NCBI GenBank assembly: GCA_903813345.2
Contig: CAIIXF020000011.1
Coordinates: 17,963,754 to 18,027,753 of the forward strand
DNA length: 64,000 bases
Reading direction: 5' to 3'
Origin: Owenia fusiformis
Lineage: Eukaryota > Annelida > Polychaeta > Sabellida > Oweniidae
A model generated the notes under the pieces. The model was given only the letters and a program-made list of their open reading frames with translations. It was not told the DNA's origin and ran no database searches. Position numbers and translations under genes: made by a program. Below, one piece after another: positions 13,099 to 49,130 of the stretch; the first letter of the stretch is position 1; each line of letters begins with the position of its first letter.

Positions 13099-16000
13099 GT
13101 AAGTACATCTATCTAATATTTCATTGCCCAAATTAGTGGCCCTTTTTGACACGATTATTGGGCCTCATTTTTGAAAAATTTTGCCCAATTATTGGTTTTC
13201 GGGGATTTTTTCTGACTTGAAATTTGGGCCCCTTTGTTATTTTTCAGTTCCACCCCTGCTCAGCGTTGATAATAAAAAAATGTAATTTTCACACAATTTC
13301 AATGTTTTTAAATTTCAAATTAAATGCAATCGAAATCATTGCGCTCGACAATATTGTTCAATAAGTTGTACATATTTTGATAAAAGAATGTGTCGTGTTT
13401 ATGTTTACCTTAATATGGCTTCTCCACCGAGAGAAGATTTGATTCACTCATTTACATCGACAAACCCTAACTTAGCACGTTCTATTTCTTTTCTATTTTG
13501 AATTACTGATATACCAAATAGCCTTCAATTGTCTTATCTTACTTCTGTCTATTTAGAGGATTTCGGAATGAATATTTTAAAATCAATTTTAATTCCAGGT
13601 ACTACATAAGAAAATCAGCAAAGAGTACAAGATGGATCGTGTTTCTAGAAGGTAATTAGAATTACATTTAGTAATTTCTCTTATTAATAAGTAATTTCTC
13701 TATTTAACAGTTTTAATAATTACTTATCATTTTTATTTTATATATCGTCCAAGAATCATAAGAGGCAGATGTGCTTGGCTGCAAAATTTTCAAATGTGAG
13801 AAGTACACGACTCGATCGTTCGACTAAGGTCTGTTGAAAGATCAAAATTGCTGTGGTTTTTGAAAAAACTAAGTGGTACATTGTTTTTTTGACAGAAATT
13901 TGACAGCATAAAATCGGACCGTCACAGTGGACGATTTGTAATCAGCGTTGTAATATGTATGAAAATTGAAAGATCACCTCAATCTGGGGTCCTATTTGCG
14001 TTGGGTTGGTGAAAGTGACGTACATATGGGGGGGGGGGTGTTCACACTATTGAAGCAAGACTAACATATCACCGCTACAATACAAGCCTCTAACTCTCAA
14101 TTGTCAAAGTTATTCAGACGTGTCACCCCTGAAGTGCACAAATGGTACATCCTCAATGGACCCCAGATCAAGGGATTACATCCCATTACGTGTTACAGAG
14201 AAAAAGAACCAGGTTGATAATTAATCTAATAGACAACATCAAAGGAGTTTACAGGTAAACTAATTCAATAGAGATACCAACTTCTAAAGTATGTAAAGCT
14301 ACGTTCTTCAACGTATATAGATACATGATATCCCATGATACTTTAAATCAAGTGGGTGCGATTATTCCACAGGAGGGTGTAGCTATTCCATGAAAAGTGC
14401 CTGCACCACACAATGATGTACCTATCCCCCGAGACCAATCCCACCAAAACATATATAGATGTACCTGTACACCGTTACAACCAAGGACAATTGGTCAGAT
14501 ATCGAAGGAATATCTTCATATAAAAGTGGTCAATTATGCACCTATATAGGTTTCATAGGTTTTAATGAAATAAAAAAAACATCGCTTCCCAACTAGAAAT
14601 TAAATACTCAACCAAACAATCAATTGTATTGATTACATATTTCCTCATGCAAGGAAATGTTTAAAGTTTAAACAAACAAAGAAGTATGGTCAAATATGGT
14701 CGCGACGGACTGACTGACGGGCGCACGGATGTCATTTGTTGTTGCTGCATCAGTGTCTTCATTCGTTGTCTTCTTTCTTCTTTCTTTTTCTTGATTTGAT
14801 TGTTGTCTGAACGGACAGCCTCGCTATATCCCTCACTAAAGACGTTCTTCCCTCGGGAACTTTTTTTCGTTGGGAAAATAGACATCTCTAGAACAGAATC
14901 AGGGTATAAGTCATATGTACCCCTTTACACTTTACATCCATACATTAGCATATGATTGCACAGTGATGAATTCAACCTCGGGAAAATATTCTAATTCAGC
15001 TATGTCGCGGTCCTTTTGATCTTGAGAAAATTGAAAATAATTCATAATTGTATATTTATGAAAAACGGCATATGCAAATAACCCTTCATTAGTTTATCTG
15101 ATATCCACAAATGTATATAAGGTGGGGGTATTTGTTAGCCATTGATTGTTATTTGGAATGATTTTCTCATTTTCCTTTGTTTAATTGTAATTTTCACCTG
15201 ACAAGTCCCCCTTTGAAGTAACCGCCAATTTATCAGCGATAAATGTCGGTTATAAAGCATCTTATCCAGTGTGTTTGATGCATGGATCCACTGATTAAAT
15301 TAATGAGAAAACTTTTTCTTGAATATGTTAAAGAAAAGTTATAAAATGAGTAATTGGTTTTGTATGAGTTATTATCAATATATAAGTAAATGATTATAAG
15401 TGAAACGGGATCAATGATTTTAACCCTACATGACAAACCAACTCATGCAAAAGTCCGACTGATATATAAACCACCTCCTGCAACTAGCTCAACTGAACAT
15501 CTCCACTTGTTTACCGATTCTACATGGGGTAGAGTTTGCAGTTAAAAATCCCATTCAGAACCATTATAACGTTTCATCTCATAACTTGTTGACGGGCACA
15601 GCTAAAGCTACATATTTCAAAAAATTATTCTGCTCTAAACAGTCTCTCCGCCATCTCTAAAAACCTGTTTCTAACCAAACATGGAAATGGTTCCTGATAG
15701 ATCAGTTCCTCCCCTATCGAAGAGGTAAAGGTACAAATAATTGGTTCAAAGAAGAATACATTTAGGAAAAATTGAAGGTTCTACCGAGATTTGAACTCGG
15801 ATCGCAGGATTCAGAGTCCTGAGTGCTAACCATTACACCATAGAACCATATATTTCGAAAGATGCAAAGGTACACATTAATTGATTCAAAGAAGAATACA
15901 TTTGGAAAAAGATTTGAAGGTTCTATCGAGATTTGAACTCGAATAGCATAATTTAAAGTTCTGAGTGCTAACCAGTACACCATAGAACCATATATTTCGG

Positions 16001-19000
16001 AAATTCAAAGATATAGATAATTGATTCAAAGAAGAATATATTTGAATTTGTAAAAAATTCACATATTTTGACAGGCGCAAAGGTACAAATGAAACGATTC
16101 AAAGAAGAATACATTTGGAAAAATATATAAAGGTTCTACCGAGATTTGAACTCGGATCGCAGGATTCAAAGTCCTGAGTGCTAACCATTACACCATAGAA
16201 CCATATATTTCGATAGAAGCAAAGGTAGAAATAATTGTTTCAAAGAAGAATACATTTGGAAAAAATATAGAACCAAAATAGAAAACATTTTGAAAAAATA
16301 TATGAAGGTTCTACCGAGATTTGAACTCGGATCGCAGGATTCAAAGTCCTGAGTGCTAACCATTACACCATAGAACCATATATTTCGACAGAAGCAAATG
16401 TACAAATAATTGGTTCAAAGAAGAATACATTTGGAAAAAATATATAACCAAAATAGAATTACATTTTGAAAAAATATATGAAGGTTCTACCGAGATTTGA
16501 ACTCGGATCGCAGGATTCAAAGTCCTGAGTGCTAACCATTACACCATAGAACCATATATTTCGACAGAAGCAAAGGTACAAATAATTGGTTCAAAGAAGA
16601 ATACATTTGGAAAAAATATAGAACCAAAATAGAATTACATTTTGAAAAAATATATGAAGGTTCTACCGAGATTTGAACTCGGATCGCAGGATTCAAAGTC
16701 CTGAGTGCTAACCATTACACCATAGAACCATATATTTCGATAGAAGCAAAGGTAGAAATAATTGTTTCAAAGAAGAATACATTTGGAAAAAATATAGAAC
16801 CAAAATAGAATACATTTGGAAAAAATATATGAAGGTTCTACCGAGATTTGAACTCGGATCGCAGGATTCAGAGTCCTGAGTACACCATTACACCATAGAA
16901 CCATATATTTCAATAGCAAAGGTAGAAATAATTGATTCAAAAAAGAATACATTTGGAAAAAATATAGAACCAAAAAAGAATACATTTGGAAAAATATATA
17001 AAGGTTCAACCGAGATTTGAACTCGGATCGCAGGATTCAAAGTCCTGAGTGCTAACCATTACACCATAGAACCATATATTTCGATAGAAGCAAAGGTAGA
17101 AATAATTGTTTCAAAGAAGAATACATTTGGAAAAAATATAGAACCAAAATAGAATACATTGGGAAAAGATATATGAAGGTTCTACCGAGATTTGAACTCG
17201 GATCGCAGGATTCAGAGTCCTGAGTGCTAACCATTACACCATAGAACCATATATTTCGATAGAAAAAAAGGTACAAATGATTACTCCAAAGAAGAATACA
17301 TTTGGAAAAAACATGTGAAGGTTCTACCGAGATTTGAACTCGGATCGCAGGATTCAGAGTCCTGAGTGCTAACCATTACACCATAGAACCATATATTTCG
17401 ATAGAAAAAAAGGTACAAATGATTACTCCAAAGAAGAATACATTTGGAAAAAAAATGTGAAGGTTCTACCTAGATTTGAACTCGGGTCGCAGGATTCAAA
17501 GTCCTGAGAGCTAACCATTCAGCCCATAGAACCATATATTTCGACAGAGGTAACGGTACAAATAATTGATTCAAAGAAGAATACATTTGAAAAAATATAG
17601 AACCAAAATAGAATACACTTGGAAAAAATATGTGAAGGTACTACCGAGATTCGAATTCGGATCGCAGGATTCAGAGTCCTGAGTGCTAACCATTACACCA
17701 TAGAACCATATATTTTTACTGGCGCAAAGGTACAAGTAAATTGATTTAAAGTAAAGTACATTTGGAAAATAATTTCTAGGTTCTACCGAGATTTGAACTC
17801 GGATCGCAGGATTCAAAGTCCTGACCATTACACCATAGAAACATATATTCGCCGATGGCAAAGCTACAAATAATATCTTCAGATACATTTTGAAAATGGA
17901 TTTCGGAACGCAGGATTCAAGGTCGCGAGTGCCATTACACCATAGCACCATATATTTCGGAATCTGCAAAGGAACAAATAATTCATCATGAGAAATCATG
18001 GTCTTCGATAACGTCAATGACAACGGAATCTGAATTTGGGATATTAAATTTACAAAGACAACGGCATATGGAAAATTATTTAAATTCGAAATTGGGATTT
18101 CATATATGATACATCATCACAAGAGTTTAATGCATGCACAAAATTAGCGACGATAAAGTCCCATGAAACGAGGACCAAGTGATTGAAGAATTGAAGCGAC
18201 GGTTATGTTCGCCATTTGTGACAACGGTATCTGACTTTACCGTTGTCAGTCTTTTCCGGTGTAAAAGGTTGAAAAATAAAACAAATTGGACACGGCACAA
18301 ATGTGTAAATCAATGAAAACAATCCCAAGAAACAAGCGTCAACATGCACGCACCTACTTTAAAGTATCGCTGAACTGTCAAGGGACATTAATGTCTATTT
18401 AGTGCCATTTTGATCCATTTTCCAATTTGATGCAAAGAAATCGAGTATGTGATATGCTCACATCATCGGGAACTTGTTCGCGATTGAAACCGTTTGTTGA
18501 TAGACTTGAAGGTGGTAAAACTTTGACCTTGGACCACAGGATTCACACTAATCTCTCTCTTATTAAAATAAAACTTAATACACACAACATCACAACAAAA
18601 TTCATTTTTCTCCATGTTAAGTTGAGACTCAAGGTTGTCGTTGAACAAGCCCTCAAAGTTATCGTGCATGCATGGGAGAAATACGGAGGAAATAAAGATT
18701 TCGCAAAATACCATTTTCAGTTTAAGATTATTAGAGAACTGTGAAATCAAGATAAGTAAAAGAGACCGACTTGGGCAAGGCTATGAACTTATATAATGAT
18801 AAAATATGGCCTTCTATTAGTTTCTTCATTGCTGAGGAAACTGCAATGAGAATCTGAACGATGAACTTGGGAATTCTAAACTTATATAAGTTCTTGGTTA
18901 TATGTTTCTTATTTATTATGTACATATTCTCTTTGTTCCAGGTGGTTGGTGTTGTTTCGACCGAAACAGTTGCCATGGACGATGGATCAACATGAAGGGA

Positions 19001-39772: not shown

Positions 39773-41441
39773 ATTTATCCCATAGTTGGACGTGTTACAG
39801 GTACATAAAGCCGGTTTGTAAAAACTTATATTTTCATCAGCGGGCAGATATAGCTTTACGTCCCGCTCTGAGCGGGCAGATAAAGTATATCTGCCCGCTA
39901 CGTCATAATCGCCGTTCGCATATATTGGTTCATTTTTTGTAACGTTCGCATAATAACAGTAAACGACAATGGAGAAAACGTAGACAATCGCGATCTGTTT
40001 GATGGTTTAAAGAAGGGAAGGAGTATACATGTCCCTGTTTAAAATCAAAGATTAGAGAAAATAAATGTGAATGAATGTCTAAAAGAACATGAAAATGCGA
40101 CCACGGCCAAGAAGTGAACATGCACATTCTAAAATAATGGCCAATTGAACAATGTGAGCTAAATGACCGAGATCGGTATGGGATAAACAGATCATCCTAT
40201 AGTCGGTTCAGGATACTGGGATTATCCCTTGGCCAATATAATATATCTACCCTCGGGACCTACGGCCCTCGGGCAGATATATTATATTGGCCTCGGGATA
40301 ATCCCAATATCCTGAACCTCATATAGGATAATCTCTATTTATCCCATACTTGGACGTGTTACGGGTACATAAAGCCGGTTTGTAAAAACTTATATTTTCA
40401 TCAGCGGGCAGATATAGCTTTACGTCCCGCTCCGAGCAGGCAGATATAATATATCTGCCCGCTACGTCATAATCGCTGTTCCCGTATTGGTTATTTTTTG
40501 TAACATTCGCATACTGTAAACGACAATGGAGAAAACGCATACAATCTCGACCTGTTTGATGCTTTAAACAAGGGAAGGAGCAGTATTCCCGGTTAATAAT
40601 CAAAGATTTGAACAGGAAAATCCGGCTACGGACAAGAATACAAAACTGGACATGAATATTTTAAAATAATTCCACGGTTGGTTGCAAAGTTTCTGAACTT
40701 TGGCCAATTGAACAATGTGATTGGTATGGGATAAACATATCATCCTATAGTCGGTTCAGGATATTGGGATTATCCCTTGGCCAGTATAATATATCTACCC
40801 TCGGGACCTACGGCCCTCGGGCAGATATATTATATTGGCCTCGGGATAATCCCAATATCCTGAACCTCATATAGGATAATCTCTATTTATCCCATACTTG
40901 GACGTGTTACAGGTACATAAAGCCGGTTTGTAAAAAACTATATTTTCATCAGCGGGCAGATATAGCTTTACGTCCCGCTCCGAGTCCGAGCGGGCAGATA
41001 TAGTATATCTGCCCGCTACGTCATAATCGCTGTTCCCGTATTGATTTTTGGTTCTAAATTGTTTGTAACCTTCGCATACTGTAAACGACAATGGAGAAAA
41101 ACGCAGACAATCGCGATCTGTTTGATGAAGGGAAGGAGCAGTATGCCCCGTTAATAATCAAAGAGTTGAACAGAAAATTCCGGCTACTAAGAATACAAAA
41201 CTGGACATGAATATTTTAAATAATTCCACGGTTGGTTGCAAAGTTTCTGAACCGTGGCCAATTGAACAATGTGATTGGTATGGGATAAACAGATCATCCT
41301 ATAGTCGGTTCAGGATATTGGGATTATCCCTTGGCAAATATAATATATCTACCCTCGGGACCTACGGCCCTCGGGCAGATATGTTATATTGGTCTCGGGA
41401 TAATCCCAATATCCTGAACCTCATATAGGATAATCTCTATT
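39773..41441. repeat. Three tandem copies of a ~555-bp hairpin-bearing repeat in dispanin intron 1
   Basis: Units start at 39773, 40337 and 40885 with 'tttatcccatacttggacg' and end with 'ggataatctctatt'. Each has an inner palindromic zone ('gcgggcagatata'..'tatatctgcccgc') and ends with a ~114-bp hairpin (40205-40318, 40753-40866, 41307-41420). A full diverged copy is at 53310-53866 and an internally deleted, inverted copy at 54805-55018. The minus-strand frames in units 2 and 3 are repeat translations. Confidence 0.85.
41307..41420. repeat. 114-bp near-perfect hairpin next to the dispanin start exon
   Basis: GGTTCAGGATATTGGGATTA is followed by 'tatatctaccctcggg', centre 'acctacgg', then 'ccctcgggcagatat' and the reverse complement of the start. 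It lies about 75 bp upstream of the acceptor for the coding exon. Confidence 0.9.
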
Positions 41442-41494: not shown

Positions 41495-42020
41495 ATGGAT
41501 ACTAAACAATTAATAGAGGATCCACGCAAGGAGGTTGAGCCTATCGACAACAGAGAGGATATTCCTCCTCCTCCGTACAGTACAGGAGAGGCTCCTGGGA
41601 CATCACCTCCACTCCAACAACAATATGGCCAACCAGGGCATCCATATGGCCAACCAGGGCCTCAATACGACCAACCAGGAGCTCAGTATGACCAACCAGG
41701 GGCCCAGCAAGGGCCTCAATATGGCCAACCAGGACCTCAATACGACCAACCAGGAGCTCAGTATGGCCAACCAGGGGTTCAGCAAGGGCCTCTAAATGGC
41801 CAAACAGTGGTTCAACAAGTGCCTCAATATGTACATCAAAAAGGTCAAGGATATGGTCAACAAGTGCAAGCCATGGATCCACCACCTGCGTATCCTGTGA
41901 CAAACCAGACTGTGATCACAACTCAACCAACACAAACAGTTATCTTACAGAATTCCCCACCACCACCAGACCACCTTGTCTGGTCTATTGTGACAACACT
42001 GTTCTGTTGCTTGTGTCTTG
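41495..42020 (+). CDS. Dispanin coding exon A (residues 1-176)
   Basis: Ends in TTTGTCTGG-type hydrophobic coding (first CD225 helix, FCCLCLG) at donor 'cttg|gtaaatat'. The GQPG/DQPG repeats come from an internal ~21-24-bp DNA repeat, so length polymorphism is likely. Confidence 0.93.
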
Positions 42021-45000
42021 GTAAATATATACAAACACGTTTAATCTCATATAGCATTGTTCAAAGTGCAAAATGCCTTTGAAGATTTCAATAAATTGCG
42101 AATAATTCAATGGGTTTTATTTTGCATTGTAACATATCTAATGATACAAATACTTTAAATTTATATTTTCACGTTTTAATGAGAATCGAGCATAGCATTT
42201 TGCTCATGTATTATTATTGGAATTTTCCTAAAAAATTAATAAGAAATCTTTATGAAACCCCGTACTTGTTATGTCTGAGAACATCATTAATTCTATCTTT
42301 GACTACATTTCAGGTATCCCAGCCATTGTGATGTCCATTATGAAACCCCTTACTTGTTATGTCTGTCTGAGAACATCATTAATTCTATCTTTGACTATGT
42401 TTCAGGTATCCCAGCCATTGTGATGTCCATTATAAAACCCCTTACATGTTATGTCTGTCTGAGAACATCATTAATTCTATCTTTGACTATGTTTCAGGTA
42501 TCCCAGCCATTGTGATGTCCATTATGAAACCCCTTACTTGTTATGTCTGTCTGAGAACATCATTAATTCTATCTTTGACTATGTTTCAGGTATCCCAGCC
42601 ATTGTGATGTCCATTATAAAACCCCTTACTTGTTATGTCTGTCTGAGAACATCATTAATTCTATCTTTGACTATATTTTAGGTATCCCAGCCATTGTGAT
42701 GTCCATTATAAAACCCCTTACTTGTTATGTCTGTCTGAGAACATCATTAATTCTACCTTTGACTATATTTCAGGTATCCCAGCCATTGTGATGTCCATTA
42801 TGAAACCCCTTACTTGTTATGTCTGGGAACATCATTAATTCTATCTTTGACTATATTTCAGGTATCCCAGCCATTGTGATGTCCATTATAAAACCCCTTA
42901 CTTGTTATGTCTGTCTGAGAACATCATTAATTCTATCTTTGACTATATTTCAGGTATCCCAGGCATTGTGATATCCATTATAAAACCCCTTACTTGTTAT
43001 GTCTGTCTGAGAACATCATTAATTCTATCTTTGACTATATTTCAGGTATGCCAGTTATTGTGATGTCCATTATAAAACCCCTTACTTGTTATGTCTGAGA
43101 ACATCATTAATTCTATCTTTGACTATATTTAAGGTATGCCAGTTATTGTGATGTCCATTATGAAACTCCTTACTTGTTATGTCTGAGAACATCATTAATT
43201 CTGTTTTTGACTATGTTTCAGGTATCCCAGCCAGTGTGATGTCCATTATGTTATGTTTGAGAACATCATTAATTCTATCTTTGACTATGTTTCAGGTATC
43301 CCAGCCATCGTGATGTCTATTATGAAACCCCTTACTTGTTATGTCTGTCTGAGAACATCATTAATTCTATCTTTGACTATATTTCAGGTATCCCAGCCAT
43401 TGTGATGTCCATTATGAAACCCCTTACTTGTTATGCCTGAGAACATCATTAATTCTATCTTTGACTATGTTTTTAGGTATCCCAGCCATTGTGATGTCCA
43501 TTATGAAACCCCTTACTTGTTATGCCTGAGAACATCATTAATTCTATCTTTGACTATATTTCAGGTATCCCAGCCATTGTGATGTCCATTATGAAACCCC
43601 TTACTTGTTATTTCTGGGAACATCATTAATTCTATCTTTGACTATGTTTCAGGTATCCCAGCCATTGTGATGTCCATTATGAAACCCCTTACTTGTTATG
43701 CCTGAGAACATCATTAATTCTACCTTTGACTATATTTCAGGTATCCCAGCCATTGTGATGTCCATTATGAAACCCCTTACTTGTTATGTCTGTCTGAGAA
43801 CATCATTAATTCTATCTTTGACTATATTTCAGGTATCCCAGCCATTGTGATGTCCATTATGAAACCCCTTACTTGTTATGTCTGACAACATCTTTAATTC
43901 TATATTTGACTATGTTTCAGGTATCCCAGCCATCGTGATGTCCATTATGAAACCCCTTACTTGTTATGTCTGAGAACATCATTAATTATATCTTTGACTA
44001 TGTTTCAGGTATCCCAGCCATGGTGATGTCCATTATAAAACCCCTTACTTGTTATGGCTGTCTGAGAACATCATTAATTCTATCTTTGACTATGTTTCAG
44101 GTATCCCAGCCATCGTGATGTCTATTATGAAACCCCTTACTTGTTATGTCTGTCTGAGAACATCATTAATTCTATCTTTGACTATGTTTCAGGTATCCCA
44201 GCCATCGTGATGTCTATTATGAAACCCCTTACTTGTTATGTCTGGGAACATCATTAATTCTATCTTTGACTATGTTTCAGGTATCCCAGCCATCGCGATG
44301 TCTATTGTGGAACCCCTTACTTGTTATGTCTGAGAACATCATTAATTCTATCTTTGACTATGTTTCAGGTATCCCAGCCATTATGATGTCCATTATGAAA
44401 CCCCTTTTTTGTTATGTCTGTCTGTGAACATCATTAATTCTATCTTTGACTATATTTCAGGTATCCCAGCCATCGTGATGTCCATTATGAAACCCCTTAC
44501 TTGTTATGTCTGGGAACATCATTAATTCTATCTTTGACTATGTTTCAGGTATCCCAGCCATTCTGATGTCCATTATGAAACCCCTTACTTGTTATGTCTG
44601 GGAACATCATTAATTCTATCTTTGACTATGTTTCAGGTATCCCAGCCATTGTGATGTCCATTATGAAACCCCTTACTTGTTATGTCTGTCTGAGAACATC
44701 ATTAATTCTATCTTTGACTATATTGCAGGTATCCCAGCCATTGTGATGTCCATTATGAAACCCCTTACTTGTTATGTCTGAGAACATCATTAATTCTATC
44801 TTTGACTATATTGCAGGTATCCCAGCCATTGTGATGTCCATTATGAAACCCCATACTTGTTATGTCTGAGAACATCATTAATTCTATCTTTGACTATGTT
44901 TCAGGTATCCCAGCCATTGTCATGTCCATTATAAAACCCCTTACTTGTTATGTCTGTCTGAGAACATCATTAATTCTATCTTTGACTATGTTTCAGGTAT

Positions 45001-46522
45001 CCCAGCCATGGTGATGTCCATTATAAAACCCCTTACTTGTTATGTCTGTCTGAGAACATCACTAATTCTATCTTTGACTATGTTTCAGGCATCCCAGCCA
45101 TCGCGATGTCCATTATGAAACCCCTTACTTGTTATGTCTGAGAACATCATTAATTCTATCTTTGACTATGTTTCAGGTATCCCAGCCATTGTGATGTCCA
45201 TTATGAAACCCCTTACTTGTTATGTCTGAGAACATCATTAATTCTATCTTTGACTATGTTTCAGGTATCCCAGCCATTGTGATGTCCATTATAAAACCCC
45301 TTACTTGTTATGTCTGAGAACATCATTAATTCTATCTTTGACTATATTTCAGGTATCCCAGCCATTGTGATGTCCATTATGAAACCCCTTACTTGTTATG
45401 TCTGAGAACATCCTTAATTCTATCTTTGACTATGTTTCAGGTATCCCAGTCATTGTGATGTCCATTATAAAACCCCTTACTTGTTATGTCTGAGAACATC
45501 ATTAATTCTATCTTTGACTATGTTTCAGGTATCCCAGCCATTGTGATGTCCATTATGAAACCCCTTACTTGTTATGTCTGAGAACATCATTAATTCTATC
45601 TTTGACTATGTTTCAGGTATCCCAGCCATCGTGATGTCCATTATGAAACCCCTTACTTGTTATGTCTGAGAACATCATTAATTCTATCTTTGACTATATT
45701 TCAGGTATCCCAGCCATCGTGATGTCCATTATGAAACCCCTTACTTGTTATGTCTGAGAACATCATTAATTCTATCTTTGACTATATTTCAGGTATCCCA
45801 GCCATGGTGATGTCCATTATGAAACCCCTTACTTGTTATGTCTGTCTGAGAACATCATTAATTCTATCTTTGACTATATTTCAGGTATCCCAGCCATCGT
45901 GATGTCCATTATGAAACCCCTTACTTGTTATGCCTAAGAACATCATTAATTCTATCTTTGACTATATTTCAGGTATCCCAGCCATCGTGATGTCTATTAT
46001 GAAACCCCTTACTTGTTATGTCTGTCTGAGAACATCATTAATTCTATCTTTGACTATATTTCAGGTATGCCAGCCATTGTGATGTCCATTATGAAACCCC
46101 TTACTTGTTATGTCTGAGAACATCATTAATTCTACCTTTGACTATATTTCAGGTATCCCAGCCATTGTGATGTCCATTATGAAACCCCTTACTTGTTATG
46201 TCTGGGAACATCATTAATTCTACCTTTGACTATATTTCAGGTATCCCAGCCATTGTGATGTCCATTATGAAACCCCTTACTTGTTGTGTCTGGGAACATC
46301 ATTAATTCTATCTTTGACTATATTTCAGGTATCCCAGCCATTGTGATGTCCATTCAGTCAAGAAATTATGCCCATGATGGAGATATGGGGAATGCTAGGC
46401 AGAAAAGTAACACTGCCAGAACCCTCAATGCTGTTGGTTTAGCCATTGGAATTAGTTCCTATGTTGCCGTTTTGGTCCTGAGATTTGTTGTAGGATTGGA
46501 ATATAACCTCAATCACTACTAG
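41495..46522 (+). CDS. Dispanin / CD225-domain (IFITM-like) proline-rich membrane protein, 239 aa
   Basis: Coding exons 41495-42020 and 46329-46522 join in phase 1 at Gly176 to give 720 nt. The ATG lies directly after acceptor 'tacatttcag'. Residues 22-155 are Pro/Gln/Tyr-rich and cytoplasmic-like, with imperfect GQPGPQYDQPGAQY repeats (about 43-95) and two PPxY motifs (25-28 PPPY and 130-133 PPAY) that could bind WW domains of NEDD4-type ligases. The CD225 domain covers about 158-228: DHLVWSIVTTLFCCLCLG, then SRNYAHDGDMGNARQKSNTA and a second hydrophobic segment GLAIGISSYVAVLVL. Cys171, Cys172 and Cys174 are at the position of palmitoylated cysteines in IFITMs. The family includes IFITM antiviral proteins, PRRT1/2 and SynDIG; a specific role here is not shown. 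The intron is almost wholly a minisatellite that copies the second exon's acceptor. Confidence 0.93.
42252..46328. repeat. Minisatellite of ~45 copies of the intron-exon junction (88/92-bp unit)
   Basis: Each unit holds the end of the intron ('catcattaattctatctttg', 'actatRtttcag') followed by 'GTATCCCAGCCATTGTGATG' and 'TCCATT', the first 26 nt of dispanin exon B. It then returns to intron sequence ('atgaaaccccttacttgtta'). I count 45 junction copies before the authentic acceptor at 46328/46329. Two length classes differ by a 4-bp 'tctg' insertion. Most copies keep an AG acceptor; one has 'tttaag', a few 'tttag' or 'ttgcag'. The plus-strand frame at 44233-44427 is a repeat translation. Confidence 0.95.
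46329..46522 (+). CDS. Dispanin coding exon B (residues 176-239)
   Basis: Begins GTATCCCAGCC after 'tatatttcag'; it is the only repeat unit that continues into 'cagtcaagaaattatg'. Encodes the conserved loop (SRNYAHDGDMGNARQKS) and second membrane segment, ending in LNHY and TAG at 46520-46522. Confidence 0.94.
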
Positions 46523-47320
46523 AACCAAGGGTGTACACAGTATCAAACATTAGGTGAGGCAAGTTCGGCAAATTAAGGCAAATGAGGCACATTTCTACCT
46601 TTGAATTCATTTCCATTGAATTAATCGGAAGAAATGTCTGAAATATATACTTCTGTTAAATGGTGTGGAGGCAGTTTCCTCGCCTGCCTTATGCCTGGCT
46701 TCTTCTCCTAAGGAAGGCCTCACCCATTGGATTTTCAAACATACTCTATTTCCACTTGATAAATGTAATATAAAGGACTAGCTTTGTTTATATCAATGAA
46801 GAAATATACAATAGAATATGCTTTACTATATCATTATGTATAGTATTTTAAAATTAATCTTAAGACCGGCCACAGGTCAGAATGACCTAGCAGTGATTAA
46901 CTATAACTATTATGCACTATTCATAGCATTAGCTGTTAGAAACCATTTGTGAAGTGACAATGATAATATTAATTTTTAATATACATTGTAGATTCAAATA
47001 TTCAAGTGTGTTTCAGCAAATCAGCTTGGAGTATGTCAGTGCATTAATTCAAGGTATATGGTCAACTGAGCAGAAATATTATTTTACAGTGCATTATGGT
47101 TCCATAAAGAACTCAATGACATTATTGGAGAGAGTCATCACAGTGCAACTTATGGTTTCAACTGGACGATGTCATTTTTATGAAAGGAGTGATTGTATAT
47201 TTAGAATGCAGTGAAGAACCCCATTTCATTCTTTACTTGAATTAAAATCACCTAGATGTAAGTCACTGACCCATCCTGATCATGTACTTTGGGTTCACCA
47301 TCGTGCATTGTGTGTACGGG
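46523..47320 (+). other. Dispanin 3' flank
   Basis: Non-coding AT-rich sequence. No canonical AATAAA close to the stop was found; an AATAAA at 47421 lies inside the MITE that starts at 47321. Transcript end unknown. Confidence 0.4.
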
Positions 47321-47625
47321 CAAGGAGGATTGGCTCCCAGGATCGAAACTCGATATTTTCCAACAATGAAAACGTCGAAATGTCGTTATTTTCTGAAATT
47401 AAAACCGACTATAAATTCAAAATAAACAGTTCAAAAGATTCGAACCAATATCTCGATCGTTTCTTGTGAGTTTTGGAATTTTTCGTTTGGAAATAAGACC
47501 AAAATTCACGATTTAAATGTTGAAGTGAACAAAATGGCGGCTGTTTGAATTCGAATTTTGTATTACGACATACCCATATATGGGACAGAATATCGGTGGT
47601 GCACTCTGGGAGCCAATCCTCCTTG
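47321..47625. mobile_element. 305-bp MITE with 20-bp perfect ends and 9-bp target duplication
   Basis: CAAGGAGGATTGGCTCCCAG at the left, its exact reverse complement at the right, and GTGTACGGG on both sides (47312-47320 and 47626-47634). The perfect ends and duplication suggest a recent insertion. No coding sequence. Confidence 0.9.
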
Positions 47626-48595: not shown

Positions 48596-49130
48596 CTTTT
48601 ACGTCAGAGTTCGAACTGTACTGCATCAGAACAACTGCTCGACGTAATGGCTACAATGCCAAACATGATAACATTTTTACGTCGGAGTTCCAACTGTACT
48701 ACAACAGAACAACTATTCGACGCACTGGAAATAATGCCAAACATGACAACAATATTTACGTCGGAGTTCCAACTGTACTTCAACAGAACAACTATTCGAC
48801 GTTCTGGTAATTATGCCAAACATGATAACAATTTTTATTTCGGAGTGCCAACTGTGCTTTAACAGAACAACTACTCAACGTAATGGCCATAATGCCAAAC
48901 ATGTTCAATATAGAATGCAATTAGCTGACGAACACTTCTCTAATGTGTTCGTCACACTAATATCATAAATGTTGTTAGGAACACAACTATCATCTTAAAA
49001 CCATATTAACTACTTTTCGACGTCATGGCTATAATGTCAAGCATGACAACAATTTTTATTCAACAGAACAACTACTCAACGTAATGGCTATAATGCCAAA
49101 CATAATAACAATCCTCAGTCAGAGTTCAAA
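48596..49130. repeat. ~80-bp tandem repeat
   Basis: Units such as 'ttacgtcggagttccaactg'..'acagaacaactattcgacg'..'ataatgccaaacatgac' repeat about four times cleanly in 48596-48900 and in decayed form to 49130. The 48404-48862 frame is a repeat translation. Confidence 0.8.

Follow-up and report, generated by a model that had tools for sequence, protein, structure and literature searches.

The 64,000-nt window analysed here, the whole stretch of contig CAIIXF020000011.1 from the annelid Owenia fusiformis under study, carries on its plus strand a dispanin gene with two coding exons (Table 1). The first encodes a proline- and glutamine-rich N terminus with PQYDQPG-like repeats, followed by the initial part of CD225. 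Joining it to the second (42020 to 46329) gives a product of 239 aa in which a profile search finds CD225 almost end to end (PF04505, 1.8e-23, 82.9 bits against a score cut-off of 27.1 bits, profile positions 1-67 of 68), and on the strength of this spliced product the gene is of the dispanin / IFITM (CD225) kind. Poly(A) signals lie 3' of the second exon, ATTAAA at 47241 and AATAAA at 47421. The intron between the two exons is almost entirely a tandem array, in which every unit contains a copy of the intron's own splice acceptor and of the start of the exon that follows; 45 decoy acceptors precede the true one.

Table 1. Features of the dispanin gene and its intronic array (positions in the window; a slash marks the splice junction).
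Feature	Position	Strand	Basis or remark
Dispanin coding exon 1	41495..42020	+	Open reading frame call; CD225 in the spliced product
Dispanin intron, phase 1, donor GTAAAT	42021..46328	+	4308 nt; the array makes up 94.6% of its length
Unique (non-array) part of the intron	42021..42251	+	Sequence reading
Tandem array, 46 contiguous units (27 x 88, 17 x 92, 1 x 89, 1 x 74 bp)	42252..46354	+	Tandem Repeats Finder; junction cutting
Unit 1, with the first decoy acceptor (42313/42314)	42252..42339	+	Junction cutting
Unit 46, with the true acceptor (46328/46329) and the genuine first 26 nt of exon 2	46267..46354	+	Junction cutting; CD225 product
Dispanin coding exon 2, including the stop codon	46329..46522	+	Second CD225 part, second membrane segment

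Tandem Repeats Finder describes the array as an 88-bp period repeated 46.0 times with 92% matches over 42250-46354, and the 45 spacings from junction to junction comprise 26 of 88, 17 of 92, one of 89 and one of 74. Each unit is made of 62-66 nt of the intron's 3' end (48 nt in unit 12) and 26 nt that correspond to the first bases of exon 2, with an exact match in 22 of the 45 decoys. Units begin with ATGAAACCCC, for which 11 have the variant ATAAAACCCC; in unit 12, 14 bp are missing here. Four additional bp, TGTC (TGGC in one unit), distinguish the 92-bp form, and both end units, 1 and 46, are 88 bp long. Beyond the 26-nt match, CAGTCAAG follows in the true exon and another ATGAAACC in the array. 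At the left edge of the array the sequence is AATCTTT/ATGAAACC, at the right edge GTCCATT/CAGTCAAG and between units GTCCATT/ATGAAACC, so that the duplication breakpoints have only TT in common. Chance is not a possible source of such an array, whose length rests on one assembled sequence. Elsewhere in the window the unit finds only similarities of 11-12 nt among the matches listed, and a 25-nt piece of the array searched in viral contigs gave 0 matches. The original prediction of a minisatellite of about 4.1 kb, with a unit joining the TTTCAG region to the first 26 nt of the exon, was right nearly to the base, and the CD225 product upholds the second coding exon that it drew. Its count of about 45 acceptors ahead of the true one is correct as well (45), and its description of them as near-identical is fair, though inexact: when the final 20 intron nt and the 26 exon nt are compared, five of the 45 decoys equal the true site.

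There is good sequence support for the view, already put forward in that prediction, that the array arose through tandem duplication across the intron/exon boundary, because the unit joins the end of this intron to the start of the exon that follows it, the breakpoints overlap by TT only, and neighbouring units are more alike than shuffled ones. On the simplest reading, an 88-nt stretch would have been duplicated in tandem within an intron then about 293 nt long (the unique part plus the 62-nt intron part of one unit), which has now reached 4308 nt. Pairwise identity among units averages 95.4% and ranges from 88.6 to 100% with gaps left out. With every indel scored as a single event, adjacent units are 3.78 events apart, compared with 4.56 in shuffles (p ~1e-4), and the excess likeness of neighbours is also found under another way of counting gaps (p 0.006), which fits local duplication. 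Some variants are shared between neighbours and 32 occur in a single unit each; exact repeats at an offset of at least 60 bp extend to 160 nt at most. In these respects the turnover looks like ordinary minisatellite behaviour. The edge units are not set apart from homogenisation, units 1 and 46 each lying 2 events from the consensus, no more than interior ones. Divergence from the consensus falls weakly towards the exon (rho -0.29, p 0.052), as growth from that side might produce; we do not rely on this trend, because distance to unit 1 falls likewise (rho -0.32, p 0.035).

By its sequence anatomy the array is a mirage, that is, a minisatellite spanning an intron/exon boundary: each unit holds intron and exon sequence of one boundary, the copies carry splice signals, and homogenisation is local. 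The prediction described the array without assigning it to this known kind. The name 'mirages' was reportedly coined by Canestro and others in 2002 for such repeats in amphioxus Adh3.

The acceptor AG is kept in all 46 units and is followed directly by GT in 45; the acceptor hexamer is TTTCAG in 41 units, TTTTAG in two, TTGCAG in two and TTTAAG in one, and the hexamer 3' of the junction is GTATCC in 42, GTATGC in three and GCATCC in one. Branch-point-like yUnAy motifs in unit 46 place their A at -12, -24 and -50. We considered whether anything near the junction might mark the true site. A further AG in the intron part is absent from unit 46 and present at least once in 37 units, and its absence is shared by eight decoys (units 7, 16, 19, 23, 25, 26, 27 and 45). 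Predicted RNA structure does not appear to hide the decoys either: two units gave z-scores of 0.35 and -0.08, and the true boundary gave 0.57. No local feature that we tested separates the true acceptor from every decoy. What follows the junction does differ: purines make up 54% of the body of the true exon, whereas 44 of the 45 decoys average 40% and reach 42% at most (the decoy adjoining the true site is excluded, as its 116 nt extend into the real exon).

Selection for or against these signals has left no clear sign. The 88 unit columns hold 44 allele types. Per column, the exon copy has 0.54, the distal part of the intron 0.51, the branch-point/tract stretch 0.36 (5 types in 14 columns) and the three AG/G columns 0. 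The invariance of the AG/G columns might suggest that decoys are being kept, yet 59% of all columns are invariant, and 38% of column shuffles yield an invariant run at least as long as the longest one observed (8 columns, TTTGACTA). There is equally no sign that decoys are being disabled, AG having been lost in 0 of 46 units. Of 21 possible synonymous and 57 possible non-synonymous allele types, the exon copies hold 5 and 9, and they show no sign of coding constraint.

Joining exon 1 to a decoy would append GIPAIVMSI, exact in 32 of the 45 cases, and then an array-coded tail. The stop would come after 17 codons in 20 decoys, 19 in one, 21 in seven, 30 in two, 36 in 14 and 40 in one, and the frames from all 45 end before exon 2. 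Where the next unit is 88 bp long the stop falls at 17 codons in 19 of 26 cases and at 21 in the other seven; where it is 92 bp long it falls at 36 codons in 14 of 17. The one decoy product that was profiled retains only CD225 positions 1-30 of 68, and the second membrane segment of the domain would be lost. The prediction had anticipated this loss, the IPAIVMSI-led tail and the earlier stop of the 88-bp unit, and all three are recovered here. The nonsense-mediated decay (NMD) that it envisaged for such transcripts does not follow from their predicted structure: classical, junction-dependent NMD would not be expected, because the array would be read as the terminal exon with no exon junction 3' of the stop, unless the 3' untranslated region contains an intron. 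Two further features of the gene bear on short products in their own right. A canonical AATAAA at 42090 lies inside the intron, about 70 nt past the donor and before the array, and TATAAA is present in 11 array units; early polyadenylation at such sites would yield another short form of dispanin.

The prediction also pointed out that each CAG/GTATCC can be read as a donor. We scored donors with human weights, which may not be the organism's own. On this scale the real donor is itself weak (1.2), and GTATCC scores 0.46 in place and -3.2 when joined to exon 1 as TTG/GTATCC. The donor reading is weak for most units; the three with GTATGC score 4.4-4.5 in place and exceed the real donor. An ATG/GTGATG inside the exon copy of three units scores 1.07.

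We favour, at a probability of somewhat under 60%, the view that the array is a near-neutral, unstable mirage in which the last acceptor mostly wins through terminal-exon definition. The sequence shows that an 88-nt unit spanning the boundary was duplicated in tandem; the array would then have been enlarged by unequal exchange or slippage, and this growth would have been near-neutral because the last acceptor would remain the one used for exon 1 in most messages. Only from that acceptor would a terminal exon of normal length begin, richer in purines along its body and followed within about 1 kb by a poly(A) signal, while each decoy would instead open into more pyrimidine-rich array. Some leakage to decoys is to be expected, which would produce a dispanin with one membrane segment and a short array-coded tail. 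Two principles conflict here, since recognition across the intron would favour the first decoy and terminal-exon recognition the last acceptor; we lean to the latter because amphioxus genes with such arrays reportedly splice normally. The options named in the prediction, in which the spliceosome would skip the decoys, use them to tune output or produce truncated isoforms, are a reasonable set, and the literature points in both directions, with amphioxus mirages on one side and human boundary repeats on the other.

Several observations weigh against this view. The first decoy lies 293 nt from the donor and should win if short introns are recognised across the intron, and the units resemble the true site in their branch-point-like motifs and tract. 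The predicted accessibility of the true acceptor ranks 9th of 46 and does not single it out, and enhancers are only weakly reflected by purine content. Local turnover shows clearly between adjacent units only, those at lags 2 to 7 not differing from shuffles. The analogy itself has limits: the amphioxus arrays with splicing results are far smaller where the accounts give counts, and for PGBD5 normal splicing was assumed, with no cDNA across the repeats (PMC3902484). Repeats at human exon-intron boundaries, moreover, are described as able to alter splicing, with 27 intron modifications (PMC2812944), and these data lead us to give decoy use more weight and last-acceptor splicing less.

The strongest competitor, which we regard as fairly unlikely, is that a sizeable share of transcripts do use decoys, the donor pairing with near acceptors to give a family of truncated, one-segment dispanins in a ratio set by array length. 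The intact AG of all 45 decoys, the tract and branch-point-like motifs that most of them keep, and the short distance from donor to first decoy all speak for it, as does the alternative splicing said to accompany human exon-intron boundary repeats (PMC2812944). Set against this are amphioxus mirages, said to leave regular splicing undisturbed (PMC3087553, PMC3902484), exon copies that show no sign of being kept for coding, and predicted tails that vary in both length (17 to 40 codons) and sequence.

It is improbable, in our estimate, that the array is real and its length or part of its order an assembly error. Precedents exist, in that the draft assembly of BflGb6 haplotype 1 was reportedly judged aberrant across its mirage (PMC3087553) and PGBD5 repeats number 2 versus 7 and 3 versus 6 in two sequence versions (PMC3902484). 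However, the private variants and the modest length of the longest exact repeat mean that reads of some kilobases could place the units, and re-sequencing of PGBD5 is said to argue strongly against misassembly there (PMC3902484). We hold it no likelier that the array is a length-coded splice switch, its unit number setting the balance of full-length two-segment and one-segment dispanin, with errors partly repaired by resplicing from regenerated GT donors; were this so, an unstable minisatellite would tune an IFITM-like protein between individuals or even cells. Least likely of all is that the junctions act as ratchet points, where joining to a decoy regenerates a GTATCC donor that is respliced onward, removing the intron in steps of 88-92 nt or more and correcting errors: the AG/GT juxtaposition does have the layout of a recursive site, GTATCC to TTTCAG between junctions could form an 88-92 nt intron with a zero-length exon, and the GTATGC units outscore the real donor, but the regenerated donor falls far below it on weights that may not fit this organism, recursive splicing in flies seems limited to very long introns with nearly all segments above 1 kb (PMC6110457), and the exon junction complex is believed to keep regenerated donors from being used (PMC8605326).

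Other repeats lie in and around the gene. Exon 1 carries a coding tandem repeat of its own, PQYDQPG/QYGQPG, at 41621-41807, and just upstream of the gene (41300-41430) is a palindromic stretch, judged by eye to resemble a miniature inverted-repeat transposable element, with arms containing ATATTGGGATTATCC and GGATAATCCCAATAT. On the 3' side, at 48597-48903, a 79-bp unit that includes CTTCAACAG, acceptor-like by eye, is repeated 3.9 times in tandem. Farther away, a 16-bp tandem repeat at 422-595 recurs about 1 kb further along, at 1566-1739, in near reverse complement (GTCAACTCAACCCCAA and GGGTTGAGTTGACTAA), the two making an inverted pair of arrays. Thirteen consecutive tRNA predictions occupy 15776-17842 on the minus strand, 12 of them tRNA-Gln, with CTG or TTG as anticodon, and the remaining one, with TTA, called as tRNA-Stop; they are spaced mostly at 142 or 175 bp, with one spacing of 213 and one of 169. 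Among the 137 open frames of the window two match pectinacetylesterase (NOTUM family) and one Josephin. The end of a plus-strand open frame at 12695-13099 matches a NOTUM homolog (4uyz, E 3.8e-05); the frame has no Pfam match at 0.01.

Acceptor choice among look-alike competitors is usually studied with built minigenes that hold few sites. The dispanin gene offers a natural counterpart with 46 acceptors that have similar branch-point-like motifs, tracts and flanks and differ mostly in position and downstream sequence, and knowing which of them are used would discriminate directly between models based on the nearest acceptor, the terminal exon and recursive splicing. The gene further illustrates the extent that duplication across a boundary, one of the routes proposed for the birth of introns, can reach while the coding sequence still looks intact.

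Among the closest known systems are the amphioxus mirages, which on the published descriptions share tandem units of intron and adjacent exon, AG/GT kept in many of them, and local homogenisation. In the globin genes, BflGb6 has mirages of 6 and 3 units of 150-160 bp that, as here, repeat the intron's 3' end with the 5' part of the exon, and BflGb9 has a duplicate (PMC3087553). The BflGb6 units are given as 81-100% alike, compared with 88.6-100% in the dispanin array, and its edge units stand apart from homogenisation (a single case, and not definitional), unlike those described above. PGBD5 carries repeats of 60 and 108 bp in numbers that differ between sequence versions (PMC3902484), 2 to 7 and 3 to 6; the present array differs from all of these in having 46 units, every one with its AG, and in belonging to a dispanin gene. 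Adh3 data and globin reverse transcription PCR are said to suggest regular splicing, and mirages have been suggested as a source of new introns (PMC3087553); Adh and TnC mirages are likewise said not to generate aberrant mRNAs (PMC3902484).

In duplicated human genes, tandem repeats at exon-intron boundaries are reported to form novel introns, and 66% of the modifications counted above also show a transcript that keeps the repeat (PMC2812944). These variable internal repeats resemble the dispanin array as minisatellite expansions at a boundary and differ in scale and outcome, averaging a 30-bp unit repeated 4 times (exon and intron cases pooled) and giving novel introns (PMC2812944), whereas here the copies lie inside a pre-existing intron. 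A potato (RdRp) intron is described as born from one duplication across a boundary (PMC4974935). The AG/GT of 45 units recalls this case and the Rogers AGGT model; in potato, however, a new intron recruited its donor from the exon (PMC4974935), and here one intron has been enlarged with no new coding exon evident. Drosophila ratchet points share the acceptor-donor juxtaposition within an intron (PMC6110457, PMC8605326). They are described as conserved, as residing in long introns and as having donors generally stronger than those of their cryptic exons (PMC8605326); the dispanin junctions form a homogenised array, are for the most part spaced at 88 or 92 nt and have GTATCC donors that are weak.

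Across the open-access literature retrieved with the terms used, mostly as titles and the openings of abstracts, boundary-spanning repeats appear for amphioxus, human duplicated genes and potato, and none has tens of intact acceptors. As far as those accounts go, what is new here is scale, with 45 decoys that all retain AG in an array far longer than the mirages of stated count. The dispanin array is an extreme case of a known, little-studied kind of repeat.

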